Below, in pieces: positions 30,315 to 44,920 of a DNA stretch of 64,000 nt (its first letter is position 1; every line of letters begins with the position of its first letter). Under the pieces are notes generated by a model that saw nothing but the letters and a program-made list of their open reading frames with translations, did not search any database and was not told where the DNA came from. Both the position numbers and the translations under genes were made by a program. This stretch comes from Phycisphaerales bacterium. GTDB lineage: Bacteria > Planctomycetota > Phycisphaerae > Phycisphaerales > SM1A02. Location of the stretch: positions 1-64,000 of the forward strand of contig JASMLR010000009.1 of NCBI GenBank assembly GCA_030748575.1, given 5' to 3'.

Positions 30315-32381
30315 CTACGGCGGGGACGTGCCAAGCTCCGGGTCAATCTTCCGCAGCCGGGCCAGCCTCGCATCAAGCCTGGCCGCATCGGCGCCGGCTC
30401 GGCGGAGGACTTCAATAAGCCGCAGGTTGGCCAGACGCCAGCGGGCAGGATCCTCCTCCCGAGGCAACGACGCAATGCGCCGGTACCCCGCGGCCACGTC
30501 AGCGAGCACCGCTCGGTTCTCCGAACCGCGGAGGCACTCGCAGCGGCCAAGCACCGCTTCCAGTACCGACGGATCCTCGTCCAGAACGGCGTCGTACCAC
30601 GCGACGGCGTGCGCGGCCGCGCCGCCCCGAGCCAACAGGCCGGCAACAGCCAGATGCTCGGCCATCGAACCGGCCGGCGGCGGAATGTCGACTGCCCTGA
30701 TGAGCATCGAAGCCTCAGCCGCCGGGAGCGATCGGGCGTGCAGCAGCAGATCCCGCGTGAAGGCGGCTCCCCCCTCGCGGGCCAACACGGCGACCCCGCT
30801 GTAGTCCCCGCCCGCGAGCGCCACGCGGCACAGGAGTCGCCGCCGATCGTCCTGGACCAGCCACGCGAGCGCTGGATCGCGTTCCAGCAGTTCGGTGGCC
30901 GCCACAACGCCGCGGGCGTCCAGTTCGTGCTCGACCAGAACCGCCGCCAACGCGGCCGTGACCGGCCTGGCCATCGCTGCCCGCGGCGCATCCCGCGTCT
31001 GGGTCGCTGCGGCCAGGGCGGCCGCTCGGGCTTCGCGAAGGATCGCTGCGTCTGACGGATCCCAGACGCCAAGCCGCGAGCGACGCGCCGCGATGATGAC
31101 GCCGACGTGCGACATGGCCTCGAGATGTGCCGCGCCCCCAGGGGCCACGCCCAGGAGTCGTTCCAGCGCCTCTGCCTCACGCCCCGCCCTCGCTTCAAGC
31201 GTGGCAAGCGTTCTGGCCCACGCCGCGGCGTGTCCGCCCAGCTTCGACGCGTGCTCAAGTACCTCCACGGCGGCAGAAGACTCAGACCGCTCTGCGAGCG
31301 CGGCGGCAAGGCGGGCAGCCTGATCCCAATGGTGTCCAGACGCTGCGGCGCCCCGTTCGGCCGCCGCCCGCCACGCTGCCATGGCTTCCGCCGGCCGGCC
31401 GGCTCGCTCCAGCGCTTCCCCGAGCGCCGCCTGGGCGGCGGCGGCATCGCGCCCCTCGAGCGGCCGCCCGAGCCGCCGCTGCAGCCAGCCGACCGCCGCG
31501 GCGGGGGTCCGTGACTGGCGGGACGCAGCGATGACGGCGGCCACATCCAGATCCTCAATGACAGCCCCGTCCAGGTCGGCGGCGCCGCCAACACGGGAGG
31601 CCAGATCAAGGGCAAGCGTGAAGGCCGCTTCCGAGGGCATTCCGGTCCGCTCCAGCGCCTGCCGCGCCGGACCGACCATACGCAGCGCTTCGGCGGTGCT
31701 GCTCGCACCAGCCATGCTCGACTCTGCGACCATCGCGACCTCCCACGGCGCGCTCGCCGCCTCAACGGCCTTGCGCCACCCATCCCCACCGGCATATCGC
31801 GCCAGCACGGCTCGGGCGGCCGCTTGCTCAATCGGCGGCGCGGTGGGATCCTCGGCCACCGCAGCGGCCTCCGCTGCCGCGTCCGCGTCGCCCCGCGCCC
31901 ACCGAAGATGCGCCGCCATCCGGCGCGACCTGGCGTCCCGGCCAGGCTGAAGATGCGCCGCCGCCTCCGCTGCCAGATCCGGGTCATCGGGCTGCAACAG
32001 GAACCCGGCAGCGCAGGCCACCCCGCGGGCATGCCGCCACCGCTCCGCATCAAGACCCACCCGAATGCCAAGGCCCGCGCACGCGCGGAGGTCGGCATCC
32101 ACGGCCGAAGACACCACAATCGCTTCATCCACCACCGCCATGGCGGACGCCCGCCGCGGCGGGTCCGGCAGCCCGAGCAGGGCCATGTCCACCACCAGAT
32201 CGTCCGTCCACGCTTCCCCGAGCACGTACTCGAGCAGCGTCAGGCCCGCCGTGACCCGCTGCCGCGGCCCCTCGGCCGAGTCCCAGTCGCTGCGAAGGGC
32301 CGCCGGATCAGCCGCCCCCGGATGAGCCCCCCCCGGATCAGCCACCGCCAGACAGGTCGCCATGCATACCACCCCGATCAC
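30315..32381 (-). CDS. Large exported helical-repeat protein of ExbB/ExbD operon
   Basis: A 688-aa protein with a short signal-like N-terminus (GVVCMATCLAVA) and then a long Ala/Arg-rich helical array. The array is probably TPR-like, though individual repeats are too divergent to count by eye. Start is the GTG overlapping the upstream exbD stop as GTGA; an ATG at 32411 would overlap by 34 bp. It is the last gene of the six-gene operon. A periplasmic scaffold or partner for the VWA/ExbD complex is inferred from position. It was not recognised as a known family. Confidence 0.65.
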   Translation of the reverse strand: MIGVVCMATCLAVADPGGAHPGAADPAALRSDWDSAEGPRQRVTAGLTLLEYVLGEAWTDDLVVDMALLGLPDPPRRASAMAVVDEAIVVSSAVDADLRACAGLGIRVGLDAERWRHARGVACAAGFLLQPDDPDLAAEAAAHLQPGRDARSRRMAAHLRWARGDADAAAEAAAVAEDPTAPPIEQAAARAVLARYAGGDGWRKAVEAASAPWEVAMVAESSMAGASSTAEALRMVGPARQALERTGMPSEAAFTLALDLASRVGGAADLDGAVIEDLDVAAVIAASRQSRTPAAAVGWLQRRLGRPLEGRDAAAAQAALGEALERAGRPAEAMAAWRAAAERGAAASGHHWDQAARLAAALAERSESSAAVEVLEHASKLGGHAAAWARTLATLEARAGREAEALERLLGVAPGGAAHLEAMSHVGVIIAARRSRLGVWDPSDAAILREARAAALAAATQTRDAPRAAMARPVTAALAAVLVEHELDARGVVAATELLERDPALAWLVQDDRRRLLCRVALAGGDYSGVAVLAREGGAAFTRDLLLHARSLPAAEASMLIRAVDIPPPAGSMAEHLAVAGLLARGGAAAHAVAWYDAVLDEDPSVLEAVLGRCECLRGSENRAVLADVAAGYRRIASLPREEDPARWRLANLRLIEVLRRAGADAARLDARLARLRKIDPELGTSPP

Positions 32382-32836
32382 AGCGAGGACTCCAGGGTGA
32401 CGTTGGTGCATCCGCCCGCCACCACGGCATTGAAGGTGTCAATGACCTGAGACCACGGTGTTTCAGGGCCCGGCACAATGATGATGGGGTGGTCGGCCAG
32501 AAACAGATCACCCCGAGGCACCACGGCGCCTGCAAGGAAGACTCGAAGCTCATCGGGCGTCTGAAGATCGCTCCACGGCCCCTCAACCGTGACCTGCGGC
32601 GGCCCGCCCTCGGGACCTGGAAGCACCTGCACCCGAAGCGGCGCCTCCTGCAGGTCCAGCGGGCTCGCGGCGGCCGCGGCGGCAGGCAGGTCGAGCCTGA
32701 AGACCTCCTCAGCCGGGCTGAAATCCGTGGCGACCATGAAGTAGACGAGCAGAAGAAAGACCACATCGATCATCGGCGCCATATGCAGGCCGATGCCTCC
32801 GCCACGTCTGCGTGTCGCCCTGGCGTGCGGTCTCAT
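32378..32836 (-). CDS. ExbD/TolR-family proton-channel subunit (second)
   Basis: A 152-aa protein with one N-terminal membrane helix (MIDVVFLLLVYFMVATDF) carrying the conserved proton-conducting Asp, preceded by the family's Met-Ala-Pro. The periplasmic domain follows (LDLPAAAAAA, then an alpha/beta part). Overlaps of 4 bp on both sides tie it to the first ExbD and to the exported protein. Two non-identical ExbD subunits next to one ExbB suggest a heterodimeric ExbD stalk. Confidence 0.88.
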   Translation of the reverse strand: MRPHARATRRRGGGIGLHMAPMIDVVFLLLVYFMVATDFSPAEEVFRLDLPAAAAAASPLDLQEAPLRVQVLPGPEGGPPQVTVEGPWSDLQTPDELRVFLAGAVVPRGDLFLADHPIIIVPGPETPWSQVIDTFNAVVAGGCTNVTLESSL

Positions 32837-33291
32837 GAGCCTCGCTCCCGGGTGGCGGCCAGTTGCGTCTGCACCGGTCCGGCAAGGCCGGCGGCGGCGC
32901 CGGCGTCACGGGTCACATCGAGGACCGGCGCTACCACCTGCCAGGCCGCGGTCTGATCGGCGCGAATCTGAACGGTCATCTCGGGCGTGGCGGCGAGCAT
33001 GGTCGTCAAGGCCGCCCGAAGGGCCGCTCGCCCCGAGCCCCCCGCCGGATAGGCGGTGCCCGCGAGCATGTACTGCGTCGACCCGCCAGCCCCCACCACG
33101 CTGACGACGGCCCGCGGGCCCGGTGGCGGAATCATGGTGGCAGGCGGTGTCGGCGCCGGGAGGTCGAGCTTCGGCCTGTCCTCGTCGACAATTCTCGACA
33201 CAAGCACAAAGAACACGATGAGCAGAAACACGACGTCGATGAGCGGCGTCATGTCTGCTCGAACCGAACTTCGGTCGCGACGTCGACTCAC
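32833..33291 (-). CDS. ExbD/TolR-family proton-channel subunit (first)
   Basis: A 152-aa protein whose N-terminal helix MTPLIDVVFLLIVFFVLVS contains the functional Asp after PLI. A proline-rich linker (PAPTPPATMIPPPGP) and a small periplasmic domain (TPEMTVQIRADQTAAW) follow. The start is a GTG overlapping the exbB stop as GTGA. The segment VQIRADQTAAWQVVAPVLD resembles the ExbD C-terminal helix-strand pattern. It probably forms the rotating or flexing core inside an ExbB pentamer. Confidence 0.9.
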   Translation of the reverse strand: MSRRRDRSSVRADMTPLIDVVFLLIVFFVLVSRIVDEDRPKLDLPAPTPPATMIPPPGPRAVVSVVGAGGSTQYMLAGTAYPAGGSGRAALRAALTTMLAATPEMTVQIRADQTAAWQVVAPVLDVTRDAGAAAGLAGPVQTQLAATRERGS

Positions 33292-34022
33292 GACGACTCC
33301 GCATTCCGTCGCGGGCGGAACCGCCCAAGCAACGCCTCGGCGGCGAGGGTCGCTTCCGCGGTCGTGGCGTCGATGCGTCCACGGAGTACCGCGCAGGCTG
33401 CGAGGGACGGAATGGCCACGACAAGACCCCAGAACGTCGTGGTCAGCGCCGTGCCGATGCCTCCGGCAAGCATGACGGGGTCGGCCGCGCCCCCCGAGGC
33501 AACGATGGCCGAGAAGGCCAGAATCATGCCGTACACCGTCCCGAACAGTCCGATCATGGGGCTGACCTGTCCGATGATGTTGAGGATCTCGATGCGGCGA
33601 AGTCGCGCAACGGTTCGCTCCTCGGACGCCTGCTCAAGGGCTCGAACGACCGCGGTCCATCCATGCGGCGCCTGCTTCATGGCATCGGACATGATGCCCC
33701 CGATAAAGCTCTCGCTCGCTGTCGCTCTCCCCAGAGCCTCTCGGAAGCGGTTCGCGTCGATGTCTCCCTGCATGGCCTCAACGAACCCATCGGGCATGAT
33801 GGAGCCGCGACGATTGTCCATCGCCATGGCGATCGCCAGCCCGATCGCAGTGGCCGACATGCACAGAAGCAGCCACGTAACGCCCGTACCCAGCACTTCG
33901 ATGTGCCCGTCACCATCACGTGAGACGAAGAACGCCGAGGCGAAACTTCGGACAGACGGTGATGCCGCTGCCGGCGAGGCGGCAAGCAGCAGGAATCCTG
34001 CGGTGATGCGATGCACGTTCAT
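33288..34022 (-). CDS. MotA/TolQ/ExbB-family proton-channel protein
   Basis: A 244-aa protein with a cleavable-looking signal (ITAGFLLLAASPAAA), a first membrane helix near 48-68 (WLLLCMSATAIGLAIAMAM), a cytoplasmic loop, and the two C-terminal helices of ExbB. The hallmark stretches are NIIGQVSPMIGLFGTVYGMI and ALTTTFWGLVVAIPSLAAC. It overlaps the VWA gene by 4 bp and the ExbD gene by 4 bp. Together they form a proton-driven motor. The signal peptide is a known feature of ExbB-type (as opposed to TolQ) proteins. Confidence 0.9.
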   Translation of the reverse strand: MNVHRITAGFLLLAASPAAASPSVRSFASAFFVSRDGDGHIEVLGTGVTWLLLCMSATAIGLAIAMAMDNRRGSIMPDGFVEAMQGDIDANRFREALGRATASESFIGGIMSDAMKQAPHGWTAVVRALEQASEERTVARLRRIEILNIIGQVSPMIGLFGTVYGMILAFSAIVASGGAADPVMLAGGIGTALTTTFWGLVVAIPSLAACAVLRGRIDATTAEATLAAEALLGRFRPRRNAESS

Positions 34023-34993
34023 TGATCGAGATCCTCCAGACCGACCATGGTCACGGTTCCGTCTCCGTGCGCTTCGTCGATGGCCTGCATGAGAACGGTC
34101 GGCGCGTCCGACCCTTCCGATGACAGTTTGATGCAGTTGACCTGAATTGGCCGCGAACCACGCTTCCCGGCTGGATTGAGCCGATCGAGCGCGGCCAGGG
34201 TGGCCGCCCGGTCCACCGCCCACCGGCCCCGTCCGTCGAGCCCCTCGCTCAGGAGCAGCACCAGTTCCGGGCGAAGGGCCGCGGCGGTCTGAAAGCCGGC
34301 AACGGGATCGGAGCCCTTGCTGAACGGCCGAGCGGTGAGCGTGCGAAGTCGCTGCATGAGTTTCGACGTGTCGCCGGGCGAGGCCGACATGAGGCCCGTC
34401 TCGGGAAGCGCGCGAACGTCCTCGCCGGAGAAGCACACCACCGCAAACCGCTGCGTCGGCTGCATCGAGGCCAGCGTCCGCTCGACTTCGTCAAGCACAA
34501 ACGGCAGCCACGCAACCATGCTTCCGCTGGCGTCGATGAGAAACACGACGGTCCGCGCCGACGCCATCGATTCGCCAGCGAAGCGGGCCGCGGGCGGCGT
34601 GAAGGTCGCTGCCCGCGGCGGTCCGGGCACGTGAGGACGTGGCGGCGCCAACTCAGCGAGCGCCGGAACCGGAAGTGGTGCCGGTGCCTGGGCAACATCC
34701 GGGGCAGCCCGAAGCGGCATCACCGGCGTCATGGCGACAACTTCCGACGTGACCACCGGCGACGGCAGCCGATCATCGAGCCGAATGATGGACCAGGTCA
34801 TGATCAGTCCGATACCGATCAAGCCGGCGTGCAGCATGATGCTGACGCCCCATGGGCCCAGTTTCCTGGCAGCCGCGTGCAGGCGGCCCTTCCATGTTGT
34901 TCCCGTTCCGATCAAGGTCGCATGGCTCCCGCCGGGGAGCATACGAGACGCCGGGCCGGACCTCCGCGGCTGCTCCCAAAGGGCCTGAACCAC
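34019..34993 (-). CDS. TonB-like anchored VWA protein
   Basis: Up to 324 aa. A membrane helix near 50-70 (GVSIMLHAGLIGIGLIMTW) contains Ser-x3-His, the spacing of Ser16/His20 in the TonB anchor that couples to ExbB/ExbD. A Pro/Ala-rich linker (about 75-140) follows, as in TonB. Then, in place of a TonB C-domain, comes a VWA domain with MIDAS DASGS, a later GSD and a terminal LLSEG, which deviate from the usual T and D. Start is GTG 34993 directly after the doxX stop; ATG 34942 is an alternative. I infer a force-transducing surface or periplasmic binding protein. Confidence 0.72.
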   Translation of the reverse strand: MVQALWEQPRRSGPASRMLPGGSHATLIGTGTTWKGRLHAAARKLGPWGVSIMLHAGLIGIGLIMTWSIIRLDDRLPSPVVTSEVVAMTPVMPLRAAPDVAQAPAPLPVPALAELAPPRPHVPGPPRAATFTPPAARFAGESMASARTVVFLIDASGSMVAWLPFVLDEVERTLASMQPTQRFAVVCFSGEDVRALPETGLMSASPGDTSKLMQRLRTLTARPFSKGSDPVAGFQTAAALRPELVLLLSEGLDGRGRWAVDRAATLAALDRLNPAGKRGSRPIQVNCIKLSSEGSDAPTVLMQAIDEAHGDGTVTMVGLEDLDQ

Positions 34994-35761
34994 TCACACC
35001 TCGTCGTACGGCTCGGGGGAGGGCTGCGGCGAGCCAGCCCCCGAGGGCCAGATGATCCGGTCGATCGACAGGCCTCCGGGGCCCTTGATGAGCAGCCCCA
35101 CGGCCAGGACGAAGAACGCAGCCTGCGCAAACATCACCCGGACCGCGGCCTCGTCTTCGACCCACCACTCAAACGGATTGGTGCCGAACAACCCGGCGTC
35201 AACGACAGACGCAAACCAGAAGGATGCTCCAAGCATGACCGCCATGGTGAGCGCGAAGAACCGCGTCAGCAGGCCGATCAGGACGAGCGGCCCGCCCAGA
35301 AGCGACGCCACCGCAGCAGCCCACGCCAGTGGCTCGGCAAAGTCCCCCACACCGGCCTCCCGGAGGCTGAGGGCCCACCGCTCGGCGGCGGCCCGCTCGA
35401 CCGGGCCCGTACTGGCGAATGGGCCGATCGGCTGGAGCGGCGATGCTGCCGCCGACTCGTCGGGGGCCGCCGATGCCTCGGCAGGGGGCGTGGCTTCAGG
35501 GGATCTGGCTTCGGAAGATGCGGCTTCCGGAGACGTGGCTGCACGCTCGGCCGGCGCGGCCGCGGGTGCAGCAACCGGAGCGGACCGAAGTGCCACCTCG
35601 ATCGGGGCCACCGGAACGCCCTCGAGCGAGCGAATCTCCTCAGCCGTAAACGCAACATCCTGGAAGCAGGCATGCCACCCGGAAAAGAAGAAGGCCGTCC
35701 CGAGAACCAGTCGTGTCAGCAGCCTGAGAATCCCGGTCCCTGCGGTGGATGTACTCGACAT
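34994..35761 (-). CDS. DoxX-family membrane protein with Pro/Ala-rich insert
   Basis: A 255-aa membrane protein. It has an N-terminal helix (LTRLVLGTAFFFSGW), a long Ala/Pro/Glu-rich insert (about 60-120) not usual in DoxX, then three helices (AWAAAVASLLGGPLVLIGLL, FALTMAVMLGASFWF, FFVLAVGLLIKG) with the DoxX-type ending. ATG 35761 is chosen; the longer frame upstream is antisense to the tRNA-Leu and cannot be coding. First gene of the six-gene ExbB/ExbD operon; the VWA gene follows without a gap. Function of DoxX proteins is poorly defined (redox/quinone or thiosulfate related in some). Confidence 0.75.
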   Translation of the reverse strand: MSSTSTAGTGILRLLTRLVLGTAFFFSGWHACFQDVAFTAEEIRSLEGVPVAPIEVALRSAPVAAPAAAPAERAATSPEAASSEARSPEATPPAEASAAPDESAAASPLQPIGPFASTGPVERAAAERWALSLREAGVGDFAEPLAWAAAVASLLGGPLVLIGLLTRFFALTMAVMLGASFWFASVVDAGLFGTNPFEWWVEDEAAVRVMFAQAAFFVLAVGLLIKGPGGLSIDRIIWPSGAGSPQPSPEPYDEV

Positions 35762-35883: not shown

Positions 35884-35965
35884 GCGGGCGTGGCGGAATT
35901 GGCAGACGCGCTGGTTTTAGGTACCAGTGGGGCAACCCGTGGAGGTTCGAGTCCTCCCGTCCGCA
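35884..35965 (+). tRNA. tRNA-Leu (anticodon UAG)
   Basis: Full cloverleaf by eye. Acceptor stem GCGGGCG/CGTCCGC (one G-U pair) with discriminator A at 35965. The D arm contains GGCGGAATTGGCAGAC. Anticodon arm: stem CTGGT/ACCAG at 35911-35927, loop TTTAGGT, anticodon TAG at 35918-35920. The long class II variable arm and the T arm GGAGG-TTCGAGT-CCTCC follow. CCA is not encoded. It stands alone, 13 bp ahead of the DAHP synthase start. Confidence 0.95.
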
Positions 35966-40852: not shown

Positions 40853-43800
40853 ATGCACCGATCCACCTACCTCTCACTCCTGACGCTGCTCACTGCAGCG
40901 AGTGTGGCGTGGGCCGGACGGATCGGCACCCAGCGAACGACCCCTACCGCGCCAGCGGGCATCGCCGCCCGCATGGCCAGGCCGGCGCCGGACCGCGCGC
41001 TGCCCCCGAGCGACCCGCAACTTGAAGAACGACTGGTTGGCAGTGATCTGGCGGATCGCTTTGGCTTCAGCCTCGACCTGTTCGGGGATCGACTGCTGGT
41101 GGGCATTCCGGGCCAGAGCACGGCGTCGCCTGAGCACGGCGGCGTGGACGGGTTCCGGCCCGCAACGGTTGGAGGGTGGACGCCGGATGCCCTGAACGCA
41201 AGCGTCTCACCGGCGGAGGGCGACCGGCTGGGATACGCCATCGACGTCGATGGCGATCTGCAAGACGCCTATACGGCAGTCGTGGGCGCCCCCGGCACAG
41301 ACTGGTTCGTCGACGACTCCACCGGCGCGGTCTATCTGTGGGAGGACACCTCCGGCGCCTGGTCGCTGAAGCACCGTCTGGATCCTTTCGACCTGGACGG
41401 TGATCAACCCGCTCAGGCCGCGGACATCTTTGCCGCCGCGGAAGTCGATCCCATTGGGGGTGAGTTCGGCCGCTCGGTCGCCATTGACGGCGACCTGATC
41501 GCCGTGGGCATGCCCTACGCGTCGGCAGCCCCCTCTCTGGGCGCGCCCCTGCTTCAGGAAGCGGGCGCGGTCGTGGTGTACCGGCGGGAGTCCGGGCAGT
41601 GGGAGTTGGACGCAGTCATCGCTCGCGCTGACACCAGGGCCTGCGCAGATGACATTCACCAGCTCGACTACTTCGGCGCCTCCGTGGCGTTGCATGGGGA
41701 TCATCTTGTCGTCGGAACACCGCTCGCGGACGACCCCAGGATGACCGAGACGGGCGCCTGCTACGTCGACTCTGCGCCGACAGACGGCATCTGGGATATC
41801 CAGCTCGATACGTCCGAGGATGCGTGCAACACCCTGGCTTTGGGCGGCGACGCAGTCTGGCTTCCCGGGCAGACCGTGACCAATCCGCTGATTGACACGA
41901 CGACGCTGGACAGCCTGGACGGCGCCTGCTGCTACTACACCAGCGAGTATCAGTGCCAATGGATGGATCCGGCAAGCCCGGTCCCGCCGACCTTGATGTC
42001 GCAGCAGGACTGCGAGTTGGTGTACGACGGCGTCTGGATTCAAGGTCAGGATCCGGCGGACATCGACTGCCCGATCGAAGACAACACGCACCTCACCGAC
42101 AACGTCGGGGTCGTCGATGTGTTCAGGCGAGACGCTGCCTCTGATTCGTGGATTCACCTCACGACGCTTCGGCCCCCACAGGACGCCAGCCTCGCCTTCG
42201 ACTACGCCACACCGGAGAGTTGGTTTGGCCACTCCGTCGCCATGAGTGGCTCCACGATTGCCGTCGGCCAACCCGGTTGGAGTCGACCGCTGGAGGCCGA
42301 TCCCTGGGAAGCCGGTGGCCGAGGCATGGCATGGGCCTTCGAGCGGTTCGATGCGCAGGACACGGCGTGGAGCGTCGTCACGGCCCTGGATCCCAACATT
42401 GCCAATCCGCCCCTGTGCACCCTGGTGGCGCCGCTCAGCGACGGCGCGCGATACGGCTGGTCGATCGACGTCACCGCGTGTCACATCGCCGTCGGGGCGC
42501 CTGGCGGGGACTACAGCATCGCGTCCGAGGAAGGTGGCGTGTACATCTGGGATCACCTGGATCACGGGCAATGGAGCCACCCCACCACCATCAATCCGGG
42601 CGTCCCTGCCTGCGATGACTACAACGACTTCAATCCACCGCTGAGCCCGGTCCACTTCGTCCAGTCCGCGGTGGGAACCCCGGGCGATCAGTGGGGACGG
42701 GACGTTGCTGTCCGTGACCGCGTCCTCATGATGGGTGGATGGTTGTACGACACCATTGAGGCCGATGTCGGCGCAGCCGAACGGTGGATGCTGGACTGCC
42801 CGTGCCAAGCGCCGAGCGGACCCGACGACGACTGCGACGAAGATGGGTGCAGTGACGTCTGGCAGATTTCAGTGGACCCCACGCTGGACCGTGGCGGCTC
42901 GTGCAGCGTTCTGGACTCCAACGGCTATCCCGCTCCGGACGGGCTGCTTGATGTCTGCCAGATGGGCAAGCACCCGGCGGCCATCACGCTTTCGGCAGCG
43001 GAACGCGGCCTTGCGACCGGCCACACCCACGCCTACACGATCAATTCGATCGACGCGCCGGCGACGGAGGAGACGTGGAACGAAGCCCGAAACGACCCCA
43101 TAATCCGCCACACCGCTGGCGTGGAACTTGCCAGCCTGTCACGGTTTCTTGAGGCCTACTTTGTAGACATTCGCCTCGACTGGGACTTCGCCGTCGACGG
43201 ATCGCTCTGGCTGGGCGGCTACGACGATCCGCCCTGGACGTGGGTCGACGGCGAGGCCTGGTTCTGGGATGCGTGGCTCCCTGGGGAGCCCGGTCTGGGC
43301 GCTGACCTGCAACTTCTGGCGTCCGAAGACGACGTGACGTGGACCTGGTCGGCAGGCACCCTGGCCACAGGCGGGCACCTGATCGAGTTCGACTCAGACT
43401 GCAACAGCAATGACCTGCTCGATGCGTGGGACATCCGGGCCGCGCTCATTGAAGATGGCGTCATTCTGGACTGCGATGACGACTGCCGCATCGACAGTTG
43501 TCAGATCGAAGACGGCACCCGCGCTGACTGCAACGGCAATGGCATCCCGGATCGCTGCGACCTCTCAACCGGCCAGAGTCAGGACTGCAATGGCAATGAT
43601 GTGCCCGACACCTGCGATGTGACGTCCGGCTTCAGCGACGACTGCAACGCGAACGACATCCCCGACGAATGCGACACCCCGGCGGACCTACAGATCTGCG
43701 ACGCGATTGTGATCAACGAGGTCCTCGTCGCTCCGGCCAGCGACGCCAATGGCGACGGCGTGTTCAGTGCCACGGAAGATCAGTGTGTCGAGATCGTCAA

Positions 43801-44920
43801 CAACTCCGCGGTCGACATCAATCTGCTCAACTGGGCCGTCCTGCTCGACGGAACGACTCCGTGGCACGAGTTCTCCAGTTCCATCACCATTGAGGCGCAC
43901 TGCGCCATTCTGATTTTCGGCGGAGGCAGTCCGGACGACGCCATCTTCCCGGACGGCATTCAAGTGCTGACCGCGACCAACGGTCAGTTCGTGCAACTTC
44001 CCGTGCCCGACACCGGAGCCACAAACACGCTCTCACTCCGGGACGACTTTGGTGACGAGCAGGACAACGTCACCTGGGGACCCGATGCCTCGGCCGGCGG
44101 CGCAAGCATGGCAAGGTGCCCGGACGTCTTCGGTGACGCCGTGCTCATACCGCACGACGATTGCACATCACACCTGATGTCGCTTGGCCTTCATGTCGAC
44201 CTGACACAGTTCCCTTGCAGTGAGATCGACACCGACGGCGACGGTGTTCCGGACGCTGATGACAACTGCCCGAACACCCAGAATGCCGATCAGGACGATT
44301 GTGATGCTGATGGCATCGGGGACGCATGCGACACCGTCACCGATTGCGACTTCAACGGCGTCGATGACCTGTGCCAGATTCTCGGCAATCCGGCGCTCGA
44401 CTGTGACGCCAATGGCATCATTGACGTCTGCGACGTCATCGGCGATGGCACCGCGGATTGCAACGACAACGGCATACTCGACACTTGTGAACTCGATGGC
44501 GCCCCGTCGATCGACTGCGACGACAATGGGATCATCGACACATGCGACATCGTCGATGGCACGCATGTTGACTGCAACGGCAACAGCATTCCCGACTCGT
44601 GTGACATCCTGAACGGAGTTCCGGACTGCAACACCAATGGTGTCCCAGACGCCTGCGACATCCTGGACGGGACCAGCCTTGACCTCAACGGCGACGGCGT
44701 TCCCGACGAATGTGAGTTCCTCGACCCGTGCGACCTCGACAACGACGGAACTCCAGAGGACCTCGTCAGTGGCACGCTGATGATCATCAGCTACTTCGGC
44801 TGCCCATCCGCGCCCGAGTGCCCAGTCGGCTACACGGGCCAAGGTGACTACGACGAAGACGGGGACGTCGACGTCGACGACATGCTCGGATTCACTCAGA
44901 ATCCGGATTGCACCGAATAG
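40853..44920 (+). CDS. Large secreted mosaic protein with FG-GAP, C-type-lectin-like and LTD-like domains
   Basis: 1355 aa with signal peptide (YLSLLTLLTAASVAWAG). Domains by eye: FG-GAP/beta-propeller-type repeats (about 55-640, e.g. FGRSVAIDGDLIAVGMPYA and FGASVALHGDHLVVGTPLA), and a C-type-lectin-like part (about 730-840, SLWLGGYDDPPW, WFWDAWLPGEP). Next come Asp/Cys-rich repeats (DCNGNGIPDRCDL), a lamin-tail-like domain (about 950-1040, IVINEVLVAP and CVEIVNNSAVDINLLNWAV) and a second Asp/Cys-rich block with a TSP3-like DTDGDGVPDADDNC. The C-terminus ends with a dockerin-like EDGDVDVDDML. Likely an extracellular adhesin; carbohydrate and Ca2+ binding are inferred. No anchor is seen. Confidence 0.85.
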   Translation: MHRSTYLSLLTLLTAASVAWAGRIGTQRTTPTAPAGIAARMARPAPDRALPPSDPQLEERLVGSDLADRFGFSLDLFGDRLLVGIPGQSTASPEHGGVDGFRPATVGGWTPDALNASVSPAEGDRLGYAIDVDGDLQDAYTAVVGAPGTDWFVDDSTGAVYLWEDTSGAWSLKHRLDPFDLDGDQPAQAADIFAAAEVDPIGGEFGRSVAIDGDLIAVGMPYASAAPSLGAPLLQEAGAVVVYRRESGQWELDAVIARADTRACADDIHQLDYFGASVALHGDHLVVGTPLADDPRMTETGACYVDSAPTDGIWDIQLDTSEDACNTLALGGDAVWLPGQTVTNPLIDTTTLDSLDGACCYYTSEYQCQWMDPASPVPPTLMSQQDCELVYDGVWIQGQDPADIDCPIEDNTHLTDNVGVVDVFRRDAASDSWIHLTTLRPPQDASLAFDYATPESWFGHSVAMSGSTIAVGQPGWSRPLEADPWEAGGRGMAWAFERFDAQDTAWSVVTALDPNIANPPLCTLVAPLSDGARYGWSIDVTACHIAVGAPGGDYSIASEEGGVYIWDHLDHGQWSHPTTINPGVPACDDYNDFNPPLSPVHFVQSAVGTPGDQWGRDVAVRDRVLMMGGWLYDTIEADVGAAERWMLDCPCQAPSGPDDDCDEDGCSDVWQISVDPTLDRGGSCSVLDSNGYPAPDGLLDVCQMGKHPAAITLSAAERGLATGHTHAYTINSIDAPATEETWNEARNDPIIRHTAGVELASLSRFLEAYFVDIRLDWDFAVDGSLWLGGYDDPPWTWVDGEAWFWDAWLPGEPGLGADLQLLASEDDVTWTWSAGTLATGGHLIEFDSDCNSNDLLDAWDIRAALIEDGVILDCDDDCRIDSCQIEDGTRADCNGNGIPDRCDLSTGQSQDCNGNDVPDTCDVTSGFSDDCNANDIPDECDTPADLQICDAIVINEVLVAPASDANGDGVFSATEDQCVEIVNNSAVDINLLNWAVLLDGTTPWHEFSSSITIEAHCAILIFGGGSPDDAIFPDGIQVLTATNGQFVQLPVPDTGATNTLSLRDDFGDEQDNVTWGPDASAGGASMARCPDVFGDAVLIPHDDCTSHLMSLGLHVDLTQFPCSEIDTDGDGVPDADDNCPNTQNADQDDCDADGIGDACDTVTDCDFNGVDDLCQILGNPALDCDANGIIDVCDVIGDGTADCNDNGILDTCELDGAPSIDCDDNGIIDTCDIVDGTHVDCNGNSIPDSCDILNGVPDCNTNGVPDACDILDGTSLDLNGDGVPDECEFLDPCDLDNDGTPEDLVSGTLMIISYFGCPSAPECPVGYTGQGDYDEDGDVDVDDMLGFTQNPDCTE

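Follow-up and report, generated by a model that had tools for sequence, protein, structure and literature searches.

An ExbB/ExbD-type motor operon with a TonB-like anchored VWA protein in a Phycisphaerales bacterium

A six-gene operon at positions 30315-35761, minus strand, of contig JASMLR010000009.1 from a Phycisphaerales bacterium (assembly GCA_030748575.1) combines an ExbB/ExbD-type motor with a TonB-like VWA transducer in an arrangement that is real and recurrent among relatives. All coordinates refer to the window, the first 64,000 nucleotides of the contig. The operon belongs to the vWA force transducer family published in 2025 by Williams-Jones et al. (PMC12204202), Fig. 4a,b of which presents the family and its gene set with AlphaFold 3 (AF3) models, its function being given there as unknown. 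The statement in the original prediction, made from the DNA sequence alone, that no named system has this set of genes is thereby overturned. By analogy with characterized motors, the operon probably encodes a force transducer of the vWA type driven by the proton motive force, a reading to which we assign a probability of about 0.72. Full-text literature searches returned no second description of the family, as judged by title or the start of the abstract, and DoxX, Phycisphaer- and MIDAS (metal ion-dependent adhesion site) are nowhere mentioned in the main text of PMC12204202. Beyond that main text, the present analysis adds the linkage to DoxX, a further exported gene carried by relatives, a linker segment that resembles the D-box, the half-missing SHLS motif of the anchor and an unconserved third MIDAS loop.

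Read from 35761 to 30315, the genes run doxX, vwa, exbB, exbD-a, exbD-b and a gene for an exported solenoid, all with open frames on the minus strand and all at the place originally proposed. The TGA stop of doxX abuts the GTG start of vwa (0 nt, no overlap), and 4-nt overlaps, legible in the sequence as had been claimed, join vwa to exbB (ATGA), exbB to exbD-a (GTGA) and exbD-a to exbD-b (ATGA). The solenoid gene overlaps exbD-b by 34 nt with the ATG at 32411 as its start and by 4 nt with the in-frame GTG at 32381 instead. Matches over the curated Pfam cut-offs were obtained for DoxX (1.3e-7), MotA_ExbB (8.2e-25) and ExbD (8.5e-16 for exbD-a and 1.5e-11 for exbD-b). Both the doxX gene expected before the motor and the large exported repeat protein expected after it are borne out.

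Recurrence of the gene set was followed in three samples of loci, in which a locus enters a neighbour count only where its contig has room. The relative set comprises 57 loci, which come from 55 genomes within the family and order (61 genomes were surveyed); it was taken at VWA matches, excluding the four genomes with no match, and the weakly matching genome G013 was not fetched. The genome-collection set holds 57 loci among the matches listed, 8 of them also in the relative set, after two Firmicutes-titled loci of the 59 listed were dropped; three of the remaining 57 are titled just "uncultured bacterium", and the nearest named matches among those listed are Phycisphaerae and Phycisphaerales genome bins. 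The outside-order set holds 20 loci from 18 genomes, hand-picked as the best long matches of a phylum survey in which 178 of 246 genomes match the VWA protein at E <= 1e-10, many via the VWA domain alone. In the surveyed family and order, the protein finds a match in 57/61 genomes at E <= 0.001. exbB and two exbD genes lie downstream of vwa at 41/52 relative loci and at 38/46 genome-collection loci among the matches listed, and a TPR gene is found downstream at 43/52 and, again among the matches listed, 37/46. In 5/6 genomes of family f4, a motor trio is found away from vwa, at another site where its ExbB has orthologue-level scores of 348-360 bits.

The vwa gene (34019-34993, minus strand; 324 aa from a GTG start), identified by Pfam, AlphaFold2 and Foldseek, encodes a protein whose AlphaFold2 model (57-row alignment; mean predicted local distance difference test score, pLDDT, 86.3) consists of a long N-terminal helix, a low-confidence linker and a VWA domain. 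Within the helix, conservation marks out a putative TonB-like membrane anchor (residues 47-68, 34790-34855, minus strand; pLDDT of the helix block 90-98) with the pattern PW-x2-S-x3-H. Its sequence, GPWGVSIMLHAGLIGIGLIMTW, carries the Ser51-x3-His55 motif and no Asp. In TonB and TolA the corresponding motif, SHLS, reads Ser-3X-His-6X-Leu-3X-Ser; its Ser and His contact the first transmembrane helix (TM1) of ExbB/TolQ, and its docking on the motor is known from cryo-EM, as reviewed in PMC12905483. An alignment of 64 homologues (57 relative loci plus the window) provides 61 informative sequences once three rows ending before the anchor are set aside: His55 is His in 61/61, Ser51 is Ser in 58/61 and Ala in 3/61, and Trp48 is kept in 52/61. 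Across the family, Ser-x3-His stands in or near a hydrophobic N-terminal helix in 120/129 open reading frames (ORFs). The original prediction would have fallen with the loss of this motif from homologues, which instead keep it in 112/119 proteins after duplicate removal. A control pool of 468 further ORFs that have a similar helix, non-coding ORFs among them, shows the motif in 8, of which 5 are second-paralogue VWA proteins; its frequency in the VWA family exceeds chance. At six loci (L072, L073, L081, L082, L085 and L086) two tandem anchored VWA genes precede one motor, and the anchor Ser is replaced by Ala, with retention of His, in both VWA copies of L073 and one copy of L082. VWA proteins with an N-terminal Ser-x3-His stretch also occur in the large genomes of family f32 (L195, L197, L201-L204), where exbB and exbD were not found within the fetched stretches of the six loci (L195, L197, L201, L202, L203 and L204).

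Between the anchor and the VWA domain lies a Pro-rich linker of roughly 75 residues (block pLDDT 48-69). In TonB, the D-box is a Pro-flanked strand after the helix (E. coli peptide QPISVTMVTPAD, residues 43-54) that is captured by two ExbD domains (PMC10907165), and a "motor box", a predicted strand in the linker, has been predicted for the vWA family (PMC12204202). On the basis of spacing and pattern, linker residues 79-90 of the window protein (P-VVTSEVVAMT-P; 34724-34759, minus strand) may represent a D-box-like segment. Counted from the anchor His, the flanks at +24 and +35 are both Pro in 7/7 genus sequences examined. With E. coli TonB His20 taken as the reference, the first Pro of the D-box presumably likewise stands at +24 and the second flank three residues nearer. 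Within the first part of the linker, conservation in the family and order alignment is highest at positions in columns 78-94 (for example Pro93 in 45/61, Leu94 in 34/61), though not uniformly so, and the AlphaFold2 model, of low confidence at residues 79-90, shows no strand there.

The VWA domain (residues 146-324, 34022-34558, minus strand) is assigned from the AlphaFold2 model and its Foldseek matches to VWA structures (best E 3.3e-9), in agreement with the proposal of a proline-rich linker followed by a VWA domain; the Pfam VWA_2 match of 3.5e-5 falls under the curated cut-off. Conservation identifies the first MIDAS motif, DASGS (residues 154-158, 34520-34534, minus strand). Among the 64 homologues, its Asp is present in 64/64 and its two Ser residues in 62/64 and 59/64, the whole DxSxS being found in 58/64, and the loop-2 Ser/Thr is kept in 59/64. 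At loop 3, by contrast with this DxSxS, the residue is Asp in just 21/64 and Glu in 16/64 (including the window), and otherwise Thr, Arg, Asn or Ser. Given the scarcity of the loop-3 Asp, classical-type metal binding by the domain is uncertain, and the "MIDAS adhesive domain" of the original prediction, along with surface exposure or adhesion, is unsupported by the sequence.

The motor itself comprises one ExbB and two different ExbD subunits. exbB (33288-34022, minus strand; 244 aa from ATG) encodes a proton channel of the MotA/TolQ/ExbB type, and a profile of 42 family members searched against PDB sequences retrieves TolQ as its best match (5.8e-17) and ExbB at 2.3e-14. The Thr pair equivalent to Thr148 and Thr181 is present in 46/46 sequences, as is the TM1 Ser that aligns with that of TolQ/ExbB, and the TM3 Pro is present in 45/46; the conserved Ser and Trp of TM1 and the Pro of TM3 form part of the anchor-contact network on ExbB/TolQ (PMC12905483). 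The genes exbD-a (32833-33291) and exbD-b (32378-32836), both on the minus strand and both of 152 aa, encode proteins with the proton-carrying Asp at the same motif: Asp19 of exbD-a, which aligns with Asp25 of E. coli ExbD in an alignment to PDB ExbD, and Asp24 of exbD-b. This residue is retained in 45/45 exbD-a and 48/49 exbD-b sequences, and by such comparison the motor residues appear intact. Ordered by stop codon, the two genes run a-b in 43/47 clusters, a-b-b in 2 and b alone in 2. A tree of the two ExbD types gave no clean split of first versus second gene, partly owing to mis-extended ORF starts.

At the upstream end of the operon, doxX (34994-35761, minus strand) encodes a 255-aa membrane protein of the DoxX family with a Pro/Ala-rich insert. 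A doxX gene precedes vwa at 31/50 relative loci, at 27/46 genome-collection loci among the matches listed and at 0/20 loci outside the order, counted by a distance rule under which a frame that overlaps vwa by over 200 nt goes unseen (L061, L062 and L161). DoxX is a membrane family tied to redox in other settings. At the downstream end, the 698-aa product of the last gene (30315-32411, minus strand) is predicted by AlphaFold2 and Foldseek to be an exported alpha-solenoid orthologous to the TPR proteins of relatives. Its signal peptide, read from the sequence, ends in AxA-D, its model is composed entirely of helices (mean pLDDT 92.4), and Foldseek returned just generic TPR-type matches. Pfam gave no match to the window protein up to E 0.1; its orthologues in L060, L050 and L048 pass the Pfam TPR cut-offs. 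In many relatives, vwa and exbB are separated by an additional gene for an exported protein of about 350 residues, found at 27 loci with a profile built from 16 of these and at 23/52 relative loci with room; the profile found no match in the window operon or at other loci of the genus.

With the vWA family as described in PMC12204202, the operon shares a transmembrane helix with Ser/His, a Pro-rich linker and a C-terminal vWA domain, as well as a single tolQ-like gene, a heterologous tolR-like pair, a TPR gene nearby and membership of the Planctomycetes-Verrucomicrobia-Chlamydiae (PVC) group. It differs from that description in keeping just the Ser-His half of SHLS, in the presence of DoxX upstream and, in many relatives, of the extra exported gene, and in gene order, with vwa preceding the motor and the TPR-type gene last. 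Because the paper gives SHLS for "many" members of the family, not all, a complete SHLS was not taken as defining it. The TPH-vWA (vWA-in-the-pore) family of the same paper (Fig. 4c,d), in which the vWA helix carries a proton-binding Asp and exbD/tolR is not found nearby, was rejected in view of the two adjacent exbD genes and the Asp-free anchor helix. Zorya defence was likewise rejected: the ExbB protein produced just weak ZorA matches (0.0035 and 0.041), and the other five proteins produced none.

A mechanism of force transfer is supported by analogy and by conservation. An ExbB pentamer assembled around an ExbD-a/ExbD-b heterodimer would conduct protons past the two ExbD aspartates, while the VWA protein would dock outside ExbB via its N-terminal helix, using Ser51 and His55. 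Linker residues 79-90 may be picked up by the periplasmic ExbD domains in the manner of the TonB D-box, such that motion of the motor would reach the VWA domain through the Pro-rich linker. This domain might in turn grip a periplasmic or outer-membrane partner, the likeliest candidate being the exported TPR-type solenoid of the operon or its cargo; DoxX may have some role in the transducer as well. Of the motor acting on a VWA/MIDAS adhesive domain that was first proposed, the motor survives, favoured by the anchor, the intact motor residues and the co-localization of the genes, and the adhesive part is not supported.

Several observations weigh against this assignment. SHLS is kept only by half, the Leu being present in 5/61 homologues and the last Ser in 0/61 (Thr in 26/61), with Gly62 and Thr66 in the window protein. 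A search of PDB sequences with the anchor profile turned up no TonB up to E 10, and eight TonB anchors recovered from 20 loci of the same family and order, a ninth and wrong frame having been dropped, have the His in 8/8 and Ser-x3-His in just 1/8. The likeness of the VWA anchor to TonB is therefore one of motif and layout, with sequence homology not demonstrated; the TonB-like anchor of the original prediction stands as to its Ser and His but not as to homology past the motif. On the motor side, the Trp that TolQ/ExbB have four positions past the TM1 Ser is not conserved, a different Trp appearing six residues before the Ser in 41/46, and 44/46 family ExbB proteins have Thr where the GIAEAL motif of ExbB/TolQ has its acidic residue. 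Outside the order, exbB is adjacent at just 10/20 loci and two exbD genes at 8/20, proportions that are not unbiased rates since the loci were hand-picked as best matches. The adjacency to exbB/exbD on which the original prediction had been staked thus holds at 41/52 loci among relatives but less well beyond the order. In family f2, five loci (L065, L070, L074, L079 and L083) have vwa beside a TPR gene with the motor absent at the site, and four of the five have DxSxA in place of DxSxS; four f2 genomes carry a second, more distant vwa-exbB-exbD-exbD-TPR cluster elsewhere. Finally, 4/61 genomes lack a VWA match and G013 has a weak one (2e-4). Since ExbB and ExbD genes are present in G013 and G025, which are 96% and 94% complete and have a weak or no VWA match, not every member of the family has the system.

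Alternative functions must be weighed against the same evidence. With the Ton system the operon has in common the anchor Ser/His, the ExbB Thr pair, the ExbD Asp and the position of the D-box-like segment, and the anchor motif could suit a VWA protein that replaces TonB in the service of TonB-dependent receptors. Pfam detects no TonB C-terminal domain in the operon, however, the two ExbD proteins differ, and neither TonB_C nor the receptor Plug finds a match in the genome of origin or in any of the 9 genus genomes (83-97% complete). The operon is therefore not a Ton system; the lack of receptors brings this explanation close to refutation, and it is exceedingly improbable. Replacement also sits poorly with the wider survey. 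TonB_C has a match at E <= 0.001 in 27/61 genomes, in 25 of them over the cut-off, and 26 of the 27, all except G025, match the VWA protein at the same threshold. A Tol-Pal-like function, in which the motor, by pulling on the VWA protein, would hold the outer membrane or constrict it during division while the solenoid took the place of TolB as periplasmic partner, is a tentative possibility. The ExbB profile matches TolQ best among PDB sequences, OmpA-family domains occur in 61/61 genomes, and the presence of the VWA protein in 8/9 genus genomes, which are small and give no TonB_C or Plug match, is as expected of a housekeeping role. Unlike Tol-Pal, the window protein bears a vWA domain where TolA has its C-terminal domain, and the operon yields no match to the OmpA/Pal or TolB families (TolA/TolB domains were not searched genome-wide); the two OmpA-domain genes of the source genome both lie on contig C77, where no MotA_ExbB gene was found.

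A gliding or surface-adhesion motor resembling Agl-Glt of Myxococcus is another reading, gliding having been suggested in PMC12204202 also, and it would fit the subunit make-up, since the Agl motor likewise consists of one TolQ-like and two TolR-like subunits (AglR, AglQ and AglS) with exported TPR proteins (PMC3169522), as well as the VWA domain adjoining the motor. The Myxococcus VWA adhesin, CglB, is nonetheless a separate outer-membrane lipoprotein, whereas the transducer here is predicted to be anchored at the inner membrane, its VWA domain tethered by the linker of about 75 residues; the loop-3 MIDAS Asp is not conserved and no barrel-family match occurs in the operon, which leaves such a motor improbable. 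It is also improbable that force is not transduced at all and that the VWA protein instead acts as a gate on proton flow through ExbB/ExbD, either as a metal- or ligand-sensing regulator or as an assembly factor. In its favour, DxSxS is complete in 58/64 homologues and DoxX, with its family's link to redox elsewhere, is a frequent partner; against it, the combination of TonB-like anchor, D-box-like segment and long Pro-rich linker has the layout of a mechanical coupler.

If the force-transducer reading is correct, VWA domains would join the known loads of ExbB/ExbD motors. The VWA protein matches in 8/9 genomes of the genus, where searches detected neither a TonB C-terminal domain nor a plug. 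On this basis it is conceivable, although doubtful, that a motor tipped with a vWA domain, containing two ExbD types and partnered by DoxX, is the main trans-envelope force system of the order, performing the housekeeping envelope work done elsewhere by Ton and Tol. Were this so, the motor would rank beside Ton and Tol as a third standard type of envelope transducer powered by protons, and it would have outer-membrane partners of its own. The conserved set, namely the anchor Ser/His, the D-box-like segment, the ExbD pair in fixed order, the solenoid and DoxX, supplies point mutants and partners that can be tested, and tests in this genus, where no Ton parts were detected, would be made against a background in which TonB-dependent uptake is an improbable task for the motor.

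The genome of origin contains three MotA_ExbB matches. At L108 (contig C66, 8492-13933), a second ExbB-type gene with a 462-residue open frame is followed by two genes resembling membrane-anchored partners, and an 810-residue VWA protein without a Ser-x3-His anchor is encoded on the opposite strand. At L107 (contig C11, 8779-9513), a lone ExbB/TolQ-type gene of 244 aa, next to which the profile found no ExbD, is directly followed by a gene that looks TraB-like by eye. In the window, a tRNA-Leu gene on the plus strand (35884-35965) stands back to back with the upstream end of the operon, near doxX. Further along, positions 40853-44920 encode a secreted-looking protein of 1355 residues with repeated DCNGNGIPDxCD-type stretches reminiscent of the calcium-binding repeats of planctomycete proteins.

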